Made by a program: the position numbers and the translations under genes. The notes beneath the pieces were generated by a model. That model saw only the letters and a list, made by a program, of their open reading frames with translations, searched no databases and was not told where the DNA came from. A DNA stretch of 29,353 nucleotides from a virus: IMG/VR virus record IMGVR_UViG_3300009509_000081, positions 1 through 29,353 of that record; one strand, written 5' to 3'. Below are positions 1,531 to 9,414 of the stretch, in pieces. Position 1 is the stretch's first letter, and each line of letters begins with the position of its first letter.

Positions 1531-1533
1531 ATG
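1490..1533 (+). promoter_or_regulatory. Tandemly duplicated ribosome-binding site and start codon
   Basis: CTTAGAAAGGA occurs at 1490-1500 and again at 1513-1523. Each copy is followed seven bases later by an ATG (1508 and 1531). ATG 1531 opens the 200-codon gene. ATG 1508 opens a different frame, overlapping it for 59 codons, whose product (Arg/Thr-rich) looks like a shadow. The duplication is 23 bp long overall and decides which start is real: the second copy serves the long gene. Confidence 0.5.
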
Positions 1534-2133
1534 CCGTACAAGAAAGTCAAAGTGTCGATTGAGGGCAGGCTTCCACACCTTCAGGCTAACGGGCAGATGG
1601 CCAACCCGCTCTACCACTGGGCCAGGATATCTAAGCCAATTAACGCGCAGCGGAAAAAGAGCGAGGAAGATATTATCAAGATCCTAGAGTACAACTTCAA
1701 AGGAAGCCTCTACATCGACGGACCAGTTGCAGACCTGGATGCAGGCCCCGTGGTTGTGCCAAGTGAGAACGTTCACGCCATGCTGAAGGAGGCAGCCAAG
1801 AACTTCAAACTTGGAAAGGTGTGGGATCAGAGCGTCACCATCGTAGGCAATTTCCCTCTGAAGTACAAAGGACCCAAGACCAGGGGTGCCCTATGGGAAG
1901 ACGAAAGTTTTCGGCACACCTGCATGGTCAAGCGTGGGAACGTGAGAGTCCTGGCCTGCAGGCCCATCTTCAGGGAGTGGGCGCTAGACTTCGAGGTAAG
2001 CTACGTAACGGAAAGGATGAACCCGGACCAGTTCAGGCAGATCCTGGAATGGGCTGGTGACTACATAGGCTTGTCCGATTGGAAATATCGGAATGGCCTG
2101 TTCAGCGTCACATCGATGAGCAACGGAAGGTAA
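1531..2133 (+). CDS. Uncharacterised phage protein, possible RAMP-like fold
   Basis: A 200-residue soluble protein. From memory it resembles a recurrent uncharacterised phage/prophage family with an N-terminal strand followed by N-x-x-x-ANPLYHWA, then SLYIDGPVADLDAGPVVVPS with NVHAMLKEAAK, FPLKYKGPK, RPIFREWALDFEV, and a closing GDYIGLSDWKYRNGLFSV. The pattern of a P-(S/G)-x-x-(I/V)-x-x-(M/A)-L-(K/R)-x-A-A helix and a Gly-rich C-terminal strand is reminiscent of RAMP/Cas7-type RNA-binding proteins, but that is a weak impression, not an identification. The gene ends 13 bases before the A-phased pentamer tract and would be transcribed into it, so it is the first candidate to ask about as a partner of that tract. 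Its start is supported by AAAGGA seven bases upstream. Confidence 0.65.
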   Translation: MPYKKVKVSIEGRLPHLQANGQMANPLYHWARISKPINAQRKKSEEDIIKILEYNFKGSLYIDGPVADLDAGPVVVPSENVHAMLKEAAKNFKLGKVWDQSVTIVGNFPLKYKGPKTRGALWEDESFRHTCMVKRGNVRVLACRPIFREWALDFEVSYVTERMNPDQFRQILEWAGDYIGLSDWKYRNGLFSVTSMSNGR

Positions 2134-2206
2134 TCCTTTCTAGGCTAAACGAATGGAGTCCAACGGAAACGGGACGACGGGAGCAGATGCCAGCCCATAC
2201 GAAACG

Positions 2207-2235
2207 AAACGGCTTTTGTGGGACAAAGCTAAACG
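2207..2235 (+). repeat. Embedded element 1 (AAACG-hairpin-AAACG)
   Basis: AAACG, then the 19-base GCTTTTGTGGGACAAAGCT (2212-2230), then AAACG. The insert folds as TTTGT-GGG-ACAAA, with an outer GC/GC pair past a bulged T. It breaks the five-base phase by 24 bases between the two AAACG units. Confidence 0.75.
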
Positions 2236-2386
2236 ATTGGAGCCGATAGCAACGGATGGCATTGGACGGGATTGGATTGGAACGGAATGCACGCGATCTG
2301 AGGGGACCGAAAGCGATGTGATCGGATGGGACTGCATCGGAACGGATACCAGTAGATCGGAACGGAGCAGATGGGACGCGAGTGCG

Positions 2387-2416
2387 AAACGTGCAGTTGT
2401 GGGACAACTTTAAACG
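2387..2416 (+). repeat. Embedded element 2
   Basis: AAACG, a 20-base insert TGCAGTTGTGGGACAACTTT (2392-2411), then AAACG. It contains the best hairpin of the set: AGTTGT-GGG-ACAACT, six perfect pairs. Compared with elements 1, 4 and 5 the stem bases differ but pairing is kept, which looks like covariation. An extra G at 2386 shifts the pentamer phase by one. Confidence 0.75.
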
Positions 2417-2496
2417 ATTGGAAGGGACGTGAGCCGAACTAATGCGAAAGCAGAGGACACGATCGCAATGGATTGCATTGCAAATGACTGGATCGG

Positions 2497-2525
2497 AAAC
2501 GGCTTTTGTGGGACCGAACTAAACG
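2497..2525 (+). repeat. Embedded element 3
   Basis: AAACG, GCTTTTGTGGGACCGAACT (2502-2520), then AAACG. The left arm and GGGAC are conserved, but the right arm is ACCGAACT instead of ACAA..., so the hairpin is weakened. It is the most diverged copy on the 3' side and may be a decayed one. Confidence 0.7.
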
Positions 2526-2600
2526 ATCGGAGCCGATAGCAACGGATGGCATTGGAGCCGAAATCAGTGGATGGGACGGCAAGGCAGAGGATGCGACACG

Positions 2601-2629
2601 AAACGGCTCTTGTGGGACAACGCTAAACG
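2601..2629 (+). repeat. Embedded element 4
   Basis: AAACG, GCTCTTGTGGGACAACGCT (2606-2624), then AAACG. It forms TTGT-GGG-ACAA with an outer GC/GC pair across a small internal loop. It is identical over 30 bases (2601-2630) to element 5 (2690-2719). Confidence 0.75.
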
Positions 2630-2689
2630 ATTGGATGTGAGCGGATACCAATGGTAAGGAGCGGATCGGATGCGACCGGACCTGACCGG

Positions 2690-2718
2690 AAACGGCTCTT
2701 GTGGGACAACGCTAAACG
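2690..2718 (+). repeat. Embedded element 5
   Basis: Same sequence as element 4: AAACG, the 19-base insert at 2695-2713, then AAACG. The shared identity suggests recent duplication of a unit of about 89 bases. Confidence 0.75.
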
Positions 2719-2845
2719 AGTGGATACGACCAGACGGGAGTGTAGCGGACGGGATACAAGAGGAGCCGAGTGGAACGCAACCGATCGGAATGGAATGGAG
2801 TGGACGCGAAACGTATCTTTCAACCACCAACACAAGGAGTAAGGC

Positions 2846-3328
2846 ATGGAACTTGAACACTTTGACTTCTCAGGTGCAGGCAGGCCAAGGCTGAATGTGG
2901 CGGGGCTCAAAAAGGGTGACTACATCCCACCTGACGAGATAGAGAAAGCGGTGGACGCCAAACGTGGCACGCCAGAGTATGGCCTGAAGCTGTTGGCCCT
3001 GCGGGAAGATATCATCAAGCAATCAGGGGACAACGGCTACCAGCTGGTGGCCAAGGGTGAGAATCATGGACTACGTATCCTGGACAACGAAGAGTGCCAG
3101 GAGTATACCTTGAACCTGCAAAGGCTGCGGCTACGCAGTCACGGCAACTGGAACCGGATAGCAAGAGACGCGGTGGATGTATCCAAGTTGCAAGACCATA
3201 CCCGCGGCAAGTTTGAACGCGAAATGGAGATGCACGCCCGGATCATCCAGCACCACGCCAGGGAGATGCGAAACCTCTTGAGAGAGCAAGGTGCAGACGA
3301 TGGACAAACCGCAAGCAGTGCTGGCTGA
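2846..3328 (+). CDS. Hypothetical protein, first gene after the pentamer tract
   Basis: A 160-residue, charged soluble protein. The start ATG 2846 has a strong AAGGAG at 2834-2839. Residues 1-60 contain an acidic segment (YIPPDEIEKAVDA), and the middle and C-terminal parts are helical and rich in Arg, Glu, His (HARIIQHHAREMRNLLREQG). There is no signal peptide or membrane segment. I do not recognise the family. Its position just downstream of the pentamer tract makes it the second neighbour candidate for a functional link. Its 3' end overlaps the next gene by about 29 bases, so the two are likely translated together. Confidence 0.65.
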   Translation: MELEHFDFSGAGRPRLNVAGLKKGDYIPPDEIEKAVDAKRGTPEYGLKLLALREDIIKQSGDNGYQLVAKGENHGLRILDNEECQEYTLNLQRLRLRSHGNWNRIARDAVDVSKLQDHTRGKFEREMEMHARIIQHHAREMRNLLREQGADDGQTASSAG

Positions 3329-5085: not shown

Positions 5086-6465
5086 GTGGCTATCGGCGCA
5101 CCAGATCAGATCAAGGGCGCACAGGGTAACTTTGTGGGGCTCCTGGCTGTCAGCTTTGATTCCACACCAGATGTTGGTGATCTGGTAATCGCAGCGTGTA
5201 CGTCATGGAGATCTGGTGGGGCTACGATCAGCAGCTTCTACGACAATCAAAGCAACAGTTACACACAGGATCAGACGCAGGCAGAAGGATCCGAGCAGGA
5301 CATCTACTTCTACTCGGCGCCAATAAGTACAGCGTCTGGCACCTTCACCGTAACGGTAGACTGGGACTATAGCTGCTGGTGTAATCTAATTATTAGCGAA
5401 TACTCTGGCGTAGACGATAGCAGCGGGAGAAAGGACACAGGTGGCGGCACTAACGGAAGCGCTAACACCAACGTAGATGGCCCCACGCTGAACCCAACAG
5501 CCTCCAACTGCCTCTATGTTGGCTGCATGTCCCATGAGGATTCGCAGACCAGCCTAACGATAGACGGTGGGGACTGGACGCAACGCAGCGAGCAGGAGGC
5601 AGCTGCGGCAGGCCAACCGTGGAACTTCCAGACAGCGGAAGGTTCCGGGTCCAAGATGCCTGGATGGACGATGGGGTCCAGTTCGGGCGGGTGGCTGACT
5701 GTAGGCGTCTGCTACAAACCAGCCGAAACCATTGTCGAATGTGACGCCACAATAGCCAGTGTCACGGCCACGGCTCTAGGCGCTACGGCTGTAGGGGATG
5801 GAACGGCAACGGCTACCGCTGGAATAGCTGGAGTAACAACCACGTCCTTGTCTCCTTCAGCCTCTGGCTCTGGGTCCGCTGCCGTGAGTGCTGGTCTGGC
5901 AACAGCCACGGCCACGGCTCTGGGCGCTGCTGTTGCAGCCACTGGATCAGCGCCTGTCACTGCGTCCATTGCAGCTGTCACAACTACGGCCCTGGATGCG
6001 GCAGCCTTAGGCAGCGGGGCAGCCCCAGCATCAGCTGCGATAGCCACCATAACGAGTGCGGCTTTGGACGCCGCAGCCATTGGAATCGGCACGGCTGCGC
6101 TATCAGCAGGTATAGCCACCTTGACCTCTACGGCCCTGGATCCAGCAGCCATCGGGAGTGGCTCGGCGTCTGTCACGGCAGGGATTGCAACGCTGACATC
6201 GGCTGCGCTGGATGCCGCAGTTGTGGCTACAGGTGCGGCATCCGTAACAGCAACCCTGGCAGGGGTGACAGCTGGCGCATTGGATGCGGCAGCCGTAGGC
6301 TCTGGCGCTGCTGCCGCTGCTGCTACCCTCGCTGGGGTTACTGCGGCAGCTCTGGATGCAAGCGCTCAGGTGGGTGTGGCAGCAGGGCAGCCCACATGGA
6401 AACGCGGAATGAACGTGCCAGGCATGGGGATTGTCAGACCAGGAATAGCCCATAACGTAGGATAG
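5086..6465 (+). CDS. Surface protein with N-terminal beta domain and nine 24-residue Ala-rich repeats
   Basis: A 459-residue product, starting at GTG 5086 (GGAG upstream at 5076-5079). Residues 1-215 look like a lectin-like or jelly-roll domain (SFDSTPDVGDLVIAACTSW; FTVTVDWDYSCWCNLIISEY). Residues about 217-435 consist of nine copies of a 24-residue unit such as SAPVTASIAAVTTTALDAAA followed by LGSG. The last 25 residues (PTWKRGMNVPGMGIVRPGI) are unique. Repeats of this kind usually form elongated beta structures on virions or cell-surface adhesins. The same unit appears in the gene at 7063 and, in a charged form, at 9870. I infer a virion appendage or decoration role. Confidence 0.7.
   Translation: MAIGAPDQIKGAQGNFVGLLAVSFDSTPDVGDLVIAACTSWRSGGATISSFYDNQSNSYTQDQTQAEGSEQDIYFYSAPISTASGTFTVTVDWDYSCWCNLIISEYSGVDDSSGRKDTGGGTNGSANTNVDGPTLNPTASNCLYVGCMSHEDSQTSLTIDGGDWTQRSEQEAAAAGQPWNFQTAEGSGSKMPGWTMGSSSGGWLTVGVCYKPAETIVECDATIASVTATALGATAVGDGTATATAGIAGVTTTSLSPSASGSGSAAVSAGLATATATALGAAVAATGSAPVTASIAAVTTTALDAAALGSGAAPASAAIATITSAALDAAAIGIGTAALSAGIATLTSTALDPAAIGSGSASVTAGIATLTSAALDAAVVATGAASVTATLAGVTAGALDAAAVGSGAAAAAATLAGVTAAALDASAQVGVAAGQPTWKRGMNVPGMGIVRPGIAHNVG
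5734..6390 (+). repeat. Coding tandem repeats, about nine 72-bp units
   Basis: Nine degenerate 72-bp units encoding the 24-residue motif A-x-x-A-x-(I/L)-A-x-(V/I)-T-x-x-A-L-D-A-A-A-x-G-S-G. Nucleotide identity between units is moderate because synonymous sites vary, so expansion is not very recent. The high Ala/Thr content leaves the reverse strand open as well. Confidence 0.8.
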
Positions 6466-6475
6466 GAGACAGACG

Positions 6476-7063
6476 ATGGCTGCAGGTGACGCAAGAACGA
6501 TCCCAAGAAGAGCGCAGGCCTACAGGGCTACCTTCCCGATCTACGATGACAACGGGGATGTCGTGGCAGATGCGGCAGACCTGGATTCTGTGATCTCAAA
6601 AGACGGGGGCACCTTTGGTGCCTGCACCAACGAAGCCACACAGATTGCTACAAGCTCTGGCATCTATTACCTGGACTTAACGAGCGCGGAGATGACAGCC
6701 GATACCGTGGCAATTAAGGTGCAGAGCAGCACCACGAACTCCAAGGATACGGTGTTGGTCTTCTACCCTGAAGGCACAGACGATCTACGTTTTACGCTGA
6801 AGAAGAACCAGGCTCGTAACAACTTTGCACTGCTCATGCGAGATAGCACAAATCACAACCCAGCTACAGGGAAGAGCGTGACAGGCACGGTGTCTAAAGA
6901 CGGCGCAGCCTTTGGTGCTTTGACCAATAGCGTCACCGAGATAGCCAACGGCTGGTACAAGGTCAACCTCGATGCGGCGGATACCAACGCTGACGTCTGT
7001 ATCTATCGCTTCACCGCCACAGGCTGTGACGACACAGCGATGCTGCTTTATCCGCAAGACTGA
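6476..7063 (+). CDS. Virion protein with two tandem BppU-like Ig domains
   Basis: A 195-residue product built of two related halves. The first contains SKDGGTFGACTNEATQIATS and GIYYLDLTSAEMTADTVAIK; the second contains SKDGAAFGALTNSVTEIANG and WYKVNLDAADTNADVCIY. This 'S-K-D-G-x-x-F-x-x-x-T-N ... G-x-Y-x-(L/V)-(D/N)-L' signature is what I associate with baseplate-upper-protein-like Ig folds in tailed phages. ATG 6476 has AGGAG nine bases upstream. The gene sits between the two Ala-rich repeat genes and overlaps the second by one base, so it probably belongs to the same surface structure. Confidence 0.65.
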   Translation: MAAGDARTIPRRAQAYRATFPIYDDNGDVVADAADLDSVISKDGGTFGACTNEATQIATSSGIYYLDLTSAEMTADTVAIKVQSSTTNSKDTVLVFYPEGTDDLRFTLKKNQARNNFALLMRDSTNHNPATGKSVTGTVSKDGAAFGALTNSVTEIANGWYKVNLDAADTNADVCIYRFTATGCDDTAMLLYPQD

Positions 7064-9414
7064 TGGCAACTGAACTGCTTAAAGTAGAGAGTAGCGGATC
7101 TCTTACGGATTGGACGCTTGGTGCAGGCGCCAGTAAGGTTGCCGCCGTGATCTACGATGGTGTGACGTATAACCACGACGGCACCACTAGCTACATCACA
7201 GAATCGACAGACGCAGACTCAGAGCAGTATGTAATCGAGCAGCCATCGGATATTGGAGCTGGTGACACCATCAACAGCGTTACGGTGTACATCTATGCTC
7301 AGGGTGTTGGTGGGTCCAAGATTAATCTGCTAATCCGCAAAAGCGGAGCTGCGTGGTACCAAAGTGGCGATACGTCTGCCCCGGCATCCTGGGGGGAGAT
7401 GTCCTATGCCAGTCCACAATCTTGGACGCTTTCGGACCTGAACAATCAGGCGGAAATAGAGATAGAATGTGGGGCCAACAAAAGCTGCGATGTAACGTCG
7501 GCATGGGTGGTTGTCGATTATACTGTTGCCTCTGTCCAGTGTGATGCCGAGGTTGCCACAGTAACCAGCACGGCTTTAGGTGCTACCGCAGCGCCGAGTG
7601 GAGCAGCGCCAGCTACCGCCGGCATCGCCACCGTTACGAGCTCAGGCCTGAACGCTACGGCGGCAGGGTCAGGTACAGCTACAGCTGCTGCAGGCATAGC
7701 CACCAGTACGGCGTCAGCGCTGGATGCTGCTGTAGCCGCGACTGGATCCGCACCTGTCACAGCTGGGCTGGCAGGGGTAACAGCATCGGCCCTGGACGCG
7801 GCGGCAGTCCCAACAGGCGCAGCACCAGCTGCCGCAACGATAGCCAACGTCACAGCCTCAGCCCTTGGAGCCACGCTTGCTGGTACTGGGGTGGCCCCTG
7901 CTGCTGCTGGCATCGCCACGGTGACGAGCGCTGCCCTGGACGCAGCGGCTTTGGGGACTGGTTCGGTAGGCGTTACCGCAAGTCTGGCTACCGTTACAGC
8001 TGGATCCCTGGACGCCACAGTGGCTGCAACAGGCGTAGCCCCTGTTACGGCCGGGATAGCGAGTGTGACGGCCAGCGCCTTGGATGCGAGTGCCGAGGTG
8101 CTGGGCGCTGCGGTGGCTGTGACAGCCGAAGCCATCGGCGTCACGGACTTCCAGACTACCGTCAGTGTCCTGACACCTGGTCTATCGGACTGGGGATACT
8201 ACCCTGTCGCTGCGGCAGCGGTGACGGTTAGCGCAGAAACAGCAACCGTTACGGCAGCTGCTCTGAACGCTACAGCGAGTGGTTCGGGCAGCGCTGCGGT
8301 TACGGCTGGAATTGCAGGCGTTACGGCTACGGCTTTGAATCCAGCTGCCACCGGCACAGGTGCTGCACCTGCCACGGCTGGGATTGCCGTGGTTACTACT
8401 ACAGCCTTGGCGGCTACGGTAGCGGCTACAGGATCAGCCCCCGTCACAGCGGCTATAGCAATCGTTACCGCGTCAGCTTTGGGGGCCACGGCGGCTGCCA
8501 CTGGTGCAGCGCCTGTCACGGCATCGATAGCATCAGTGACTACGGCAGCCCTTGACGCAGCGGTAATTGGGTCTGGCACGGCAGCGGCTACAGCAGCCAT
8601 AGCTACCGTTACGGCTACCGCCTTGGACGCGGAGGCTGCTATTGGCCTAATCAAGGTAGATGCCGAGATAGCCACCGTTACAGCGTCAGCTTTGGCTGCT
8701 ACCGCAGCAGGGTCAGGAACAGCACCAGCCACGGCTGGGATTGCGACGATCACCTCGGCAGCCTTAGACGCTGTGGCTGTGGGTTCAGGCACAGCGGCAG
8801 CTACTGCTGGAATAGCTACGGTTACAGCCACAGCCCTGGCAGCAACGGTGGCAGCTACAGGATCAGCACCTGTCACCGCTGGTATAGCCGAGGTGACGGC
8901 AGCCGCACTCGGGGCCACAGCCCAGGTGGTGGGCGCTGTCCAGGTGTCCGCCGAGGTGGCCACAGTGACTGCTACGGCACTGCCCGCAGCAGCGTCAGGA
9001 TCTGGTACGGCGGGTGTTACCGCAGGGCTTGCAGGTGTGACCACAACAGCCCTTGATGCCAGCGTAAGCGGTAGCGGATCCGTTGGGGTAGTAGCCGATA
9101 TTGCCAGTGTATCTGTTGCAGCTCTATCGGCTGTCGCAGCCCCATCTGGAGCAGCAGCGGTAACGGCAACGGTAGCCCAGGTTGCAGTTGTTGTCCTGGA
9201 TGCAGCAGCAGTAGGGACTGGTATATCGTCCGTAACTGCCGAAATAGCTATAGTTATAGCAACGGCAGGGACAATTACTGCAGCCAGCCCAAATCTTGCT
9301 AGTATATTGTTTTTCCTCTTAGATTCTGAGACTATACGTTTCGTGACGTTTAAGACGGAATCGATTGGTTTCTCCGAACTCACAACAGACGCCGCCGTGT
9401 TTTCCTCTTTTTAG
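7063..9414 (+). CDS. Long surface protein with about 22 Ala-rich 24-residue repeats
   Basis: A 783-residue product. Residues 1-155 form a beta-rich domain (SINSVTVYIYAQGVGGSKIN-type strands; AWVVVDYTV) similar in style to carbohydrate-binding or fibre modules. From about residue 158 to 745 there are roughly 22 copies of the 24-residue unit found in the gene at 5086. They fall into blocks of about eight, six, four and five units. Blocks end in variants such as AEVLG, AAIGL or AQVVG instead of GSG, and some restart with a V/I-x-V-x-AE motif. The first block is followed by a 38-residue unique insert (around DFQTTVSVLTPGLSDWGYYP). The C-terminal 40 residues are non-repetitive. ATG 7063 overlaps the previous stop. 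An elongated fibre or decoration role is inferred. Confidence 0.7.
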   Translation: MATELLKVESSGSLTDWTLGAGASKVAAVIYDGVTYNHDGTTSYITESTDADSEQYVIEQPSDIGAGDTINSVTVYIYAQGVGGSKINLLIRKSGAAWYQSGDTSAPASWGEMSYASPQSWTLSDLNNQAEIEIECGANKSCDVTSAWVVVDYTVASVQCDAEVATVTSTALGATAAPSGAAPATAGIATVTSSGLNATAAGSGTATAAAGIATSTASALDAAVAATGSAPVTAGLAGVTASALDAAAVPTGAAPAAATIANVTASALGATLAGTGVAPAAAGIATVTSAALDAAALGTGSVGVTASLATVTAGSLDATVAATGVAPVTAGIASVTASALDASAEVLGAAVAVTAEAIGVTDFQTTVSVLTPGLSDWGYYPVAAAAVTVSAETATVTAAALNATASGSGSAAVTAGIAGVTATALNPAATGTGAAPATAGIAVVTTTALAATVAATGSAPVTAAIAIVTASALGATAAATGAAPVTASIASVTTAALDAAVIGSGTAAATAAIATVTATALDAEAAIGLIKVDAEIATVTASALAATAAGSGTAPATAGIATITSAALDAVAVGSGTAAATAGIATVTATALAATVAATGSAPVTAGIAEVTAAALGATAQVVGAVQVSAEVATVTATALPAAASGSGTAGVTAGLAGVTTTALDASVSGSGSVGVVADIASVSVAALSAVAAPSGAAAVTATVAQVAVVVLDAAAVGTGISSVTAEIAIVIATAGTITAASPNLASILFFLLDSETIRFVTFKTESIGFSELTTDAAVFSSF
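7534..9290 (+). repeat. Coding tandem repeats, about twenty-two 72-bp units in blocks
   Basis: The units match those at 5734-6390. Several unit types recur in the same order (a TVAATG-SAPVTA junction occurs repeatedly), suggesting that sub-blocks have been copied. This is a likely hot spot for recombination within and between the two genes. Confidence 0.8.

Follow-up and report, generated by a model that had tools for sequence, protein, structure and literature searches.

A period-five intergenic tract in a phage contig, read as a VIPR guide array with a variant grip triplet

What kind of element holds an A at every fifth base of a non-coding stretch while the two bases that follow it vary almost freely? 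We addressed this question for the + strand tract at positions 2147-2813 of a contig from a virus record (IMG/VR IMGVR_UViG_3300009509_000081), all 29,353 nucleotides of which are referred to here as the window. The tract sits between two co-directional genes, at 1531-2133 and 2846-3328, on a contig that also carries terminase and portal genes and, at 526-978, a RuvC-like resolvase gene. Further downstream, the genes at 5086-6465 and 7063-9414 contain long Ala/Thr/Val/Gly-rich internal repeats (ATVTATALGAT-like) and probably encode repetitive structural proteins. A first-pass annotation, made from the letters of the sequence, had described an A-phased pentamer tract and favored a filament or ring protein that binds nucleic acid with a step of five nucleotides.

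The A-phased tract is not an artefact. Base composition modulo five with phase tracking, the check suggested by that annotation, resolves six in-phase blocks, and a direct count gives 113 five-base units, A being the first base in 111. Position 2172 has G and position 2655 has T instead, exactly the two positions named at first pass; the earlier tallies of 107 of 109 units with A and 105 of 109 with G/C at base 5 hold as a signal and differ from ours (111/113 and 109/113) only through the choice of edge units. G/C also occupies base 4 in 101 of the 113 units, and bases 2 and 3 are near-random, with 0.06 and 0.01 bit of information when a few flanking units are included in the phase tracking. 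Pairs of A at lag 5 number 125, against 61 +/- 5 (maximum 78) in 1000 shuffles that preserve dinucleotides, and in no other 100-bp stretch of the window does any base exceed 0.70 at a single phase. As had been claimed, the units are not copies of one repeat: there are 51 different units among the 113 by direct count and TRF finds no array in the tract, which together exclude a copied repeat and led us to reject a simple satellite or slippage origin. The tract was also rightly called non-coding, since lag 15 gives no higher match fraction (0.425) than lag 5 (0.44), which argues against coding, and a coding tract was rejected on this ground. Rfam returned nothing for the tract, its CRISPR-DR41 match lying far under threshold (16.8 vs 36 bits), and a scan for promoters and terminators gave nothing above chance.

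What the first-pass annotation overlooked is how the blocks are framed. Each starts and ends with AAACG, and the blocks are separated by a recurring linker of 19-20 nt with a TTGTGGGAC core, present in five copies and absent after block 6 (Table 1). The linkers look palindromic to the eye; a linker hairpin was nonetheless rejected, as all five copies fold no better than shuffles (z from +0.5 to -1.2). They probably mark sites of processing or tails. Blocks 2 and 4 have part of their content in common (2231-2280 vs 2521-2555): units 3-7 are identical (variable letters GC TA AC TG TT), unit 2 differs by one letter (TT vs TC), and the blocks diverge after unit 7. These two blocks are probably guides derived one from the other; we infer that one was copied from the other or that both were aimed at variants of one gene.

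Table 1. Features of the candidate VIPR locus (window coordinates)
Feature	Position	Strand	Detail
vipr gene, RAMP (Cas7/Csm3-like), 200 aa, by homology and model	1531..2133	+	phmmer, AF2, Foldseek/VIA, PHROG 4652
Putative vrRNA block 1	2147..2211	+	13 pentamers ANNSS (= SSA/NN)
Linker GCTTTTGTGGGACAAAGCT, conserved	2212..2230	+	fold not above shuffles
Putative vrRNA block 2	2231..2385	+	31 pentamers, double length
G + AAACG + linker TGCAGTTGTGGGACAACTTT	2386..2411	+	
Putative vrRNA block 3	2412..2501	+	18 pentamers
Linker GCTTTTGTGGGACCGAACT, conserved	2502..2520	+	
Putative vrRNA block 4	2521..2605	+	17 pentamers
Linker GCTCTTGTGGGACAACGCT, conserved	2606..2624	+	
Putative vrRNA block 5	2625..2694	+	14 pentamers
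Linker GCTCTTGTGGGACAACGCT, conserved	2695..2713	+	same sequence as the linker at 2606..2624
Putative vrRNA block 6	2714..2813	+	20 pentamers; ends ~30 nt before next start codon
vap-like accessory gene, 160 aa	2846..3328	+	profile match, conserved position in relatives

The gene upstream of the tract supplies a candidate reader. Its product matches PDB 36pp_D, 'SUSP1 Vipr protein', over residues 5-199 on 3-193 (phmmer E=4.9e-25), with a profile match to Vipr at E=3.5e-37, and its family corresponds to PHROG 4652 (unknown function). The AF2 model (pLDDT 92, pTM 0.87) has Csm3/Cas7 RAMPs as its top Foldseek/VIA matches, with VIA Z scores reaching 11.6 across 157 residues, and the C-terminal IGLSDWKYRNGLF aligns with the RAMP glycine-rich loop (G-loop). 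By sequence comparison and modeling, then, the product is a Vipr homologue with a predicted Cas7/Csm3-type RAMP fold, comprising the RRM core and glycine-rich loop. The gene downstream of the tract resembles, at the profile level, the VIPR accessory gene vap: its family compared with SUSP1-clade vap (PHROG 5926) and with the second array-linked family (family B, described below) scored 95.9% in hhalign (E=5e-9), and its close relatives in loci L017 and L093 occupy the same position beside arrays. The gene has no family assignment, the single-sequence PHROG match of its product was not significant, its fold gave no confident structure match, and the protein used as a query against viral contigs found no matches.

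VIPR, described in a 2026 preprint, is a CRISPR-like system carried mainly by viruses in which a RAMP protein of the phage, Vipr, is accompanied by the accessory gene vap and by guide RNAs termed vrRNAs; seven types have been published (PMC13142463). In the published vrRNAs, 9-16 pentamer repeats, each a fixed GGY plus a variable NN, are followed by an invariable structured 3' tail; the NN letters pair with dsDNA, with one target base skipped per NN, and 'a related consensus' is admitted beside GGY (PMC13142463). The statement in the first-pass annotation that no described element has this design is thus superseded by that report. With a Vipr homologue upstream and a vap-like gene downstream, the tract reads as the six vrRNA guide blocks of a VIPR locus, and 1531-3328 is very probably a phage-borne VIPR system made up of vipr, the six guide blocks and the vap-like gene, with SSA as the grip triplet. 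The Vipr homologue, the RAMP fold, the vap-like gene, the intergenic pentamers beside vipr and viral carriage all agree with the published description. The GGY triplet does not: 111 of 113 units have A in place of Y, which we take as marking a variant and not as grounds for exclusion. As a kind, VIPR has been known since 2026, and the present locus is a VIPR whose grip triplet departs from the usual one; SSA is new unless the 'related consensus' of the preprint already covers it (PMC13142463).

Compared with the systems of Escherichia phage SUSP1 and a P. fulva prophage (PMC13142463; PDB 36PP), the locus shares a full-length Vipr homologue with a vap-like neighbor, and tandem, phage-borne guide blocks built of pentamers in which two bases vary, with several vrRNAs in a row. 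It differs in having SSA in place of GGY and blocks of up to 31 units in place of 9-16, only blocks 1 and 5 lying within the published range. It differs from SUSP1 further in that all six blocks are located between vipr and vap, whereas there they lie outside both genes, and in that short TTGTGGGAC linkers take the place of the pseudoknot tail of SUSP1. The likeness to class 1 CRISPR RAMPs (Csm3/Cas7) with crRNA consists of the RAMP fold, the G-rich loop and a putative filament reading RNA in regular steps; here, however, the step is five and not six, there is no contiguous spacer, and neither CRISPR repeats nor other cas genes occur among the genes scanned. Near-identical direct repeats alternating with spacers, as in CRISPR-Cas, were not found at the locus.

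The arrangement is widespread. The first-pass annotation had suggested a search of metagenomic phages, and an IMG/VR scan for fourteen ANNNS units recovered, besides simple repeats, numerous degenerate tracts of pentamers whose fixed letters differ (GACNN, CACNN, GAGNN, GGANN, GCANN). Two gene families adjoin these tracts; the larger includes homologues of the 1531-2133 gene and the second ~175-aa proteins related to the 2846-3328 product (profile comparison 95.9%), so that an order of gene A, array and gene B is conserved. Vipr plus an array occurs in well over a hundred other loci; among ~130 loci fetched by the Vipr protein alone from viral and bacterial collections, 19 lacked a nearby pentamer array, and a shuffled sequence control yielded 0 arrays in 337 kb. 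GGYNN arrays stand beside the homologue in the isolated phages Felixounavirus allfine, MakoManhole and LittleE and on an Azospirillum plasmid. Loss of the mod-5 signal from related phages had been named at first pass as the observation that would speak against the tract; the signal is present in them at the same locus. Direct DNA relatives were found neither in IMG/VR by linker pattern nor among phage records by blastn. That the tract is degenerate satellite DNA produced by slippage, or an assembly artefact, is hardly credible: the pentamer scan did pick up some ordinary simple repeats elsewhere, but the 51 distinct units, the empty TRF result and an arrangement that recurs across isolated phages and many independent assemblies all speak against it.

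The relatives vary in layout. Their arrays lie both upstream and downstream of vipr, and in locus L094 (5030-5819) GAGNN blocks split by strong GC hairpins (AACCCCGCCATCGCTGACGGGGTT) run antisense to vipr, so the two can lie on opposite strands. In L126 (1640-1773 and 2885-3236; Gordonia phage MakoManhole) and L127 (5142-5507; Mycobacterium phage LittleE), GGYNN arrays are interspersed with stretches resembling a tRNA T-arm and 3' end (GGTTCGACTCCCCACCCGAGCA; GGTTCGAGTCCATC), in which ARAGORN finds no whole tRNA; these stretches may serve vrRNA processing by tRNA enzymes. A 1.3-kb GGANN array in L047 (10440-11830, - strand), adjoined by a distant Vipr homologue, has blocks parted only by CTGTA, and the GGANN blocks of L093 (6800-8520) and L175 (3570-4020) are parted by long GC-rich hairpins of differing sequence, which makes the linker or tail seem freely replaced between related systems. 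No hammerhead was found in ten relative loci at the Rfam gathering threshold. Vipr homologues with arrays also occur in many bacterial genomes (loci L209-L255), including Microvirga, Methylobacterium, Azospirillum, Bradyrhizobium, Streptomyces, Pseudomonas, Vreelandella and Acidobacteria, and this set holds a Diapherotrites archaeal contig with a short partial Vipr match and a GGCNN array.

If the two variable letters pair with coding DNA at a one-base skip, they should fall on two positions of one codon phase throughout. On this premise, six models were compared on 229 GGY arrays, and codon positions 1-2 (on either strand) were best in 136, against 51 after letter swapping. The same positions were best in 33 of 55 GAC arrays (12 swapped), 23 of 31 CAC (2), 10 of 11 GAG (1) and 23 of 51 GGA (13). 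When each Vipr cluster was given one vote, real letters exceeded swapped ones in 12 of 13 GGY clusters (sign p = 0.003) and in 22 of 25 non-GGY clusters (p = 0.00016), single non-GGY classes being mostly too small for significance alone (GGA 5/6, p 0.22). These comparisons support a one-base-skip, wobble-phase rule that would extend beyond GGY. For the window's own NN letters, antisense codon positions 1-2 were best by 1.9 nats over the next model, with 197 of 1000 shuffles as good, so a codon phase there is suggestive at most. The first-pass annotation had placed selection on the spacing and the fixed letters, and both are indeed conserved; its view of bases 2 and 3 as free does not stand, these being the guide letters of the published system and carrying the codon-phase signal in related arrays. 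Unit bases 2-3 most likely spell the DNA target.

The same evidence bears on the analogy that the first-pass annotation itself had drawn, under which the tract would be a TRAP-like or other RNA- or ssDNA-binding array regulating the downstream gene, with the two other bases as spacers without information. TRAP (trp RNA-binding attenuation protein) reads triplets two bases apart, hence with period five and fixed letters as here, and the tract lies just upstream of the start codon at 2846. The triplet of a TRAP site, repeated at a spacing of 2-3 bases, is (G/U)AG, however, and not SSA (GGA/GCA/CGA); the adjacent gene here encodes a RAMP protein, a Vipr homologue and not TRAP; and the spacer letters are informative in arrays related to the window's, where they keep codon phase. 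Blocks with shared ends and linkers, and arrays on either side of vipr in relatives, also fit guide RNAs better than a leader, and we regard a TRAP-like array as very improbable. What survives of the earlier proposal is the protein with a five-nucleotide step, still the best explanation and now with a Vipr RAMP gene adjacent; the tract is better seen as RNA guide information than as a TRAP- or DnaA-like binding site.

The fixed triplet itself varies among relatives. In the window, SSA resolves into GGA (25), GCA (12) and CGA (8) of 51 units in detected arrays, and the related loci mostly have GGY, with GGA, GCA, GAC, CAC and GAG also present. Mapped on the Vipr tree, on which the window branch is long and its nearest neighbor unsure, triplet type requires 34 changes against a shuffled mean of 58, and 0 of 200 shuffles were as low. 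A serine in the G-loop (S182 of the window protein) occurs in 11 of 18 Viprs with third-letter A arrays and in none of the other 115, with four or more changes on the tree; this column is the best of ~190 scanned and the independent-pair test was too small for significance, which makes the association exploratory. We tentatively suggest, at somewhat short of even confidence, that the grip triplet, far from being tied to GGY, switches in evolution together with Vipr, giving mutually exclusive codes, with the A type perhaps read by S182.

By analogy with the published system, the + strand of 2147-2813 would be transcribed and cut to one vrRNA per block. Vipr subunits would line the RNA, one per five bases and each gripping an SSA triplet, leaving the two variable bases of every unit pointing outward to pair with DNA at one skipped target base (target 5'-NNxNNx...). 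A 14-unit block would in this way read ~42 bp of dsDNA, and the bound complex may block transcription of a competing phage or satellite, with Vap assisting.

Targets for the window's guides were sought in 4.3 Mb of fetched DNA on both strands with skips of 0-3, and the matches were at chance level. Three 8-unit one-skip seeds found 15 loci in IMG/VR, with flanking units matching at chance, and a guessed 31-aa peptide from block 2 had no match in phages. A VIPR system that is inactive or decayed here, whose guides match nothing now or serve self-regulation only, would account for this result and for two further features: positions 4-5 looser than in GGY arrays (S, not G) and the double length of block 2. 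On the other hand, few seeds were searched for targets, and in a single collection; decay would blur the phase, yet 111 of 113 units retain their A; vipr and vap both have intact reading frames; and the six blocks are distinct with shared ends. We consider inactivity or decay unlikely.

VIPR is a very young discovery and has reportedly been proposed as a CRISPR ancestor. The locus and its relatives indicate that the scaffold letters of the VIPR code vary in step with Vipr and that the codon phase expected from one-base skipping persists in the two guide letters of clades with other triplets. The grip of protein on RNA thereby becomes testable through one loop residue or one triplet, and the pattern suggests RNA-guided DNA binders with non-cross-reacting codes. 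Period-five tracts beside a RAMP gene offer, in addition, a simple scan for more VIPR loci.
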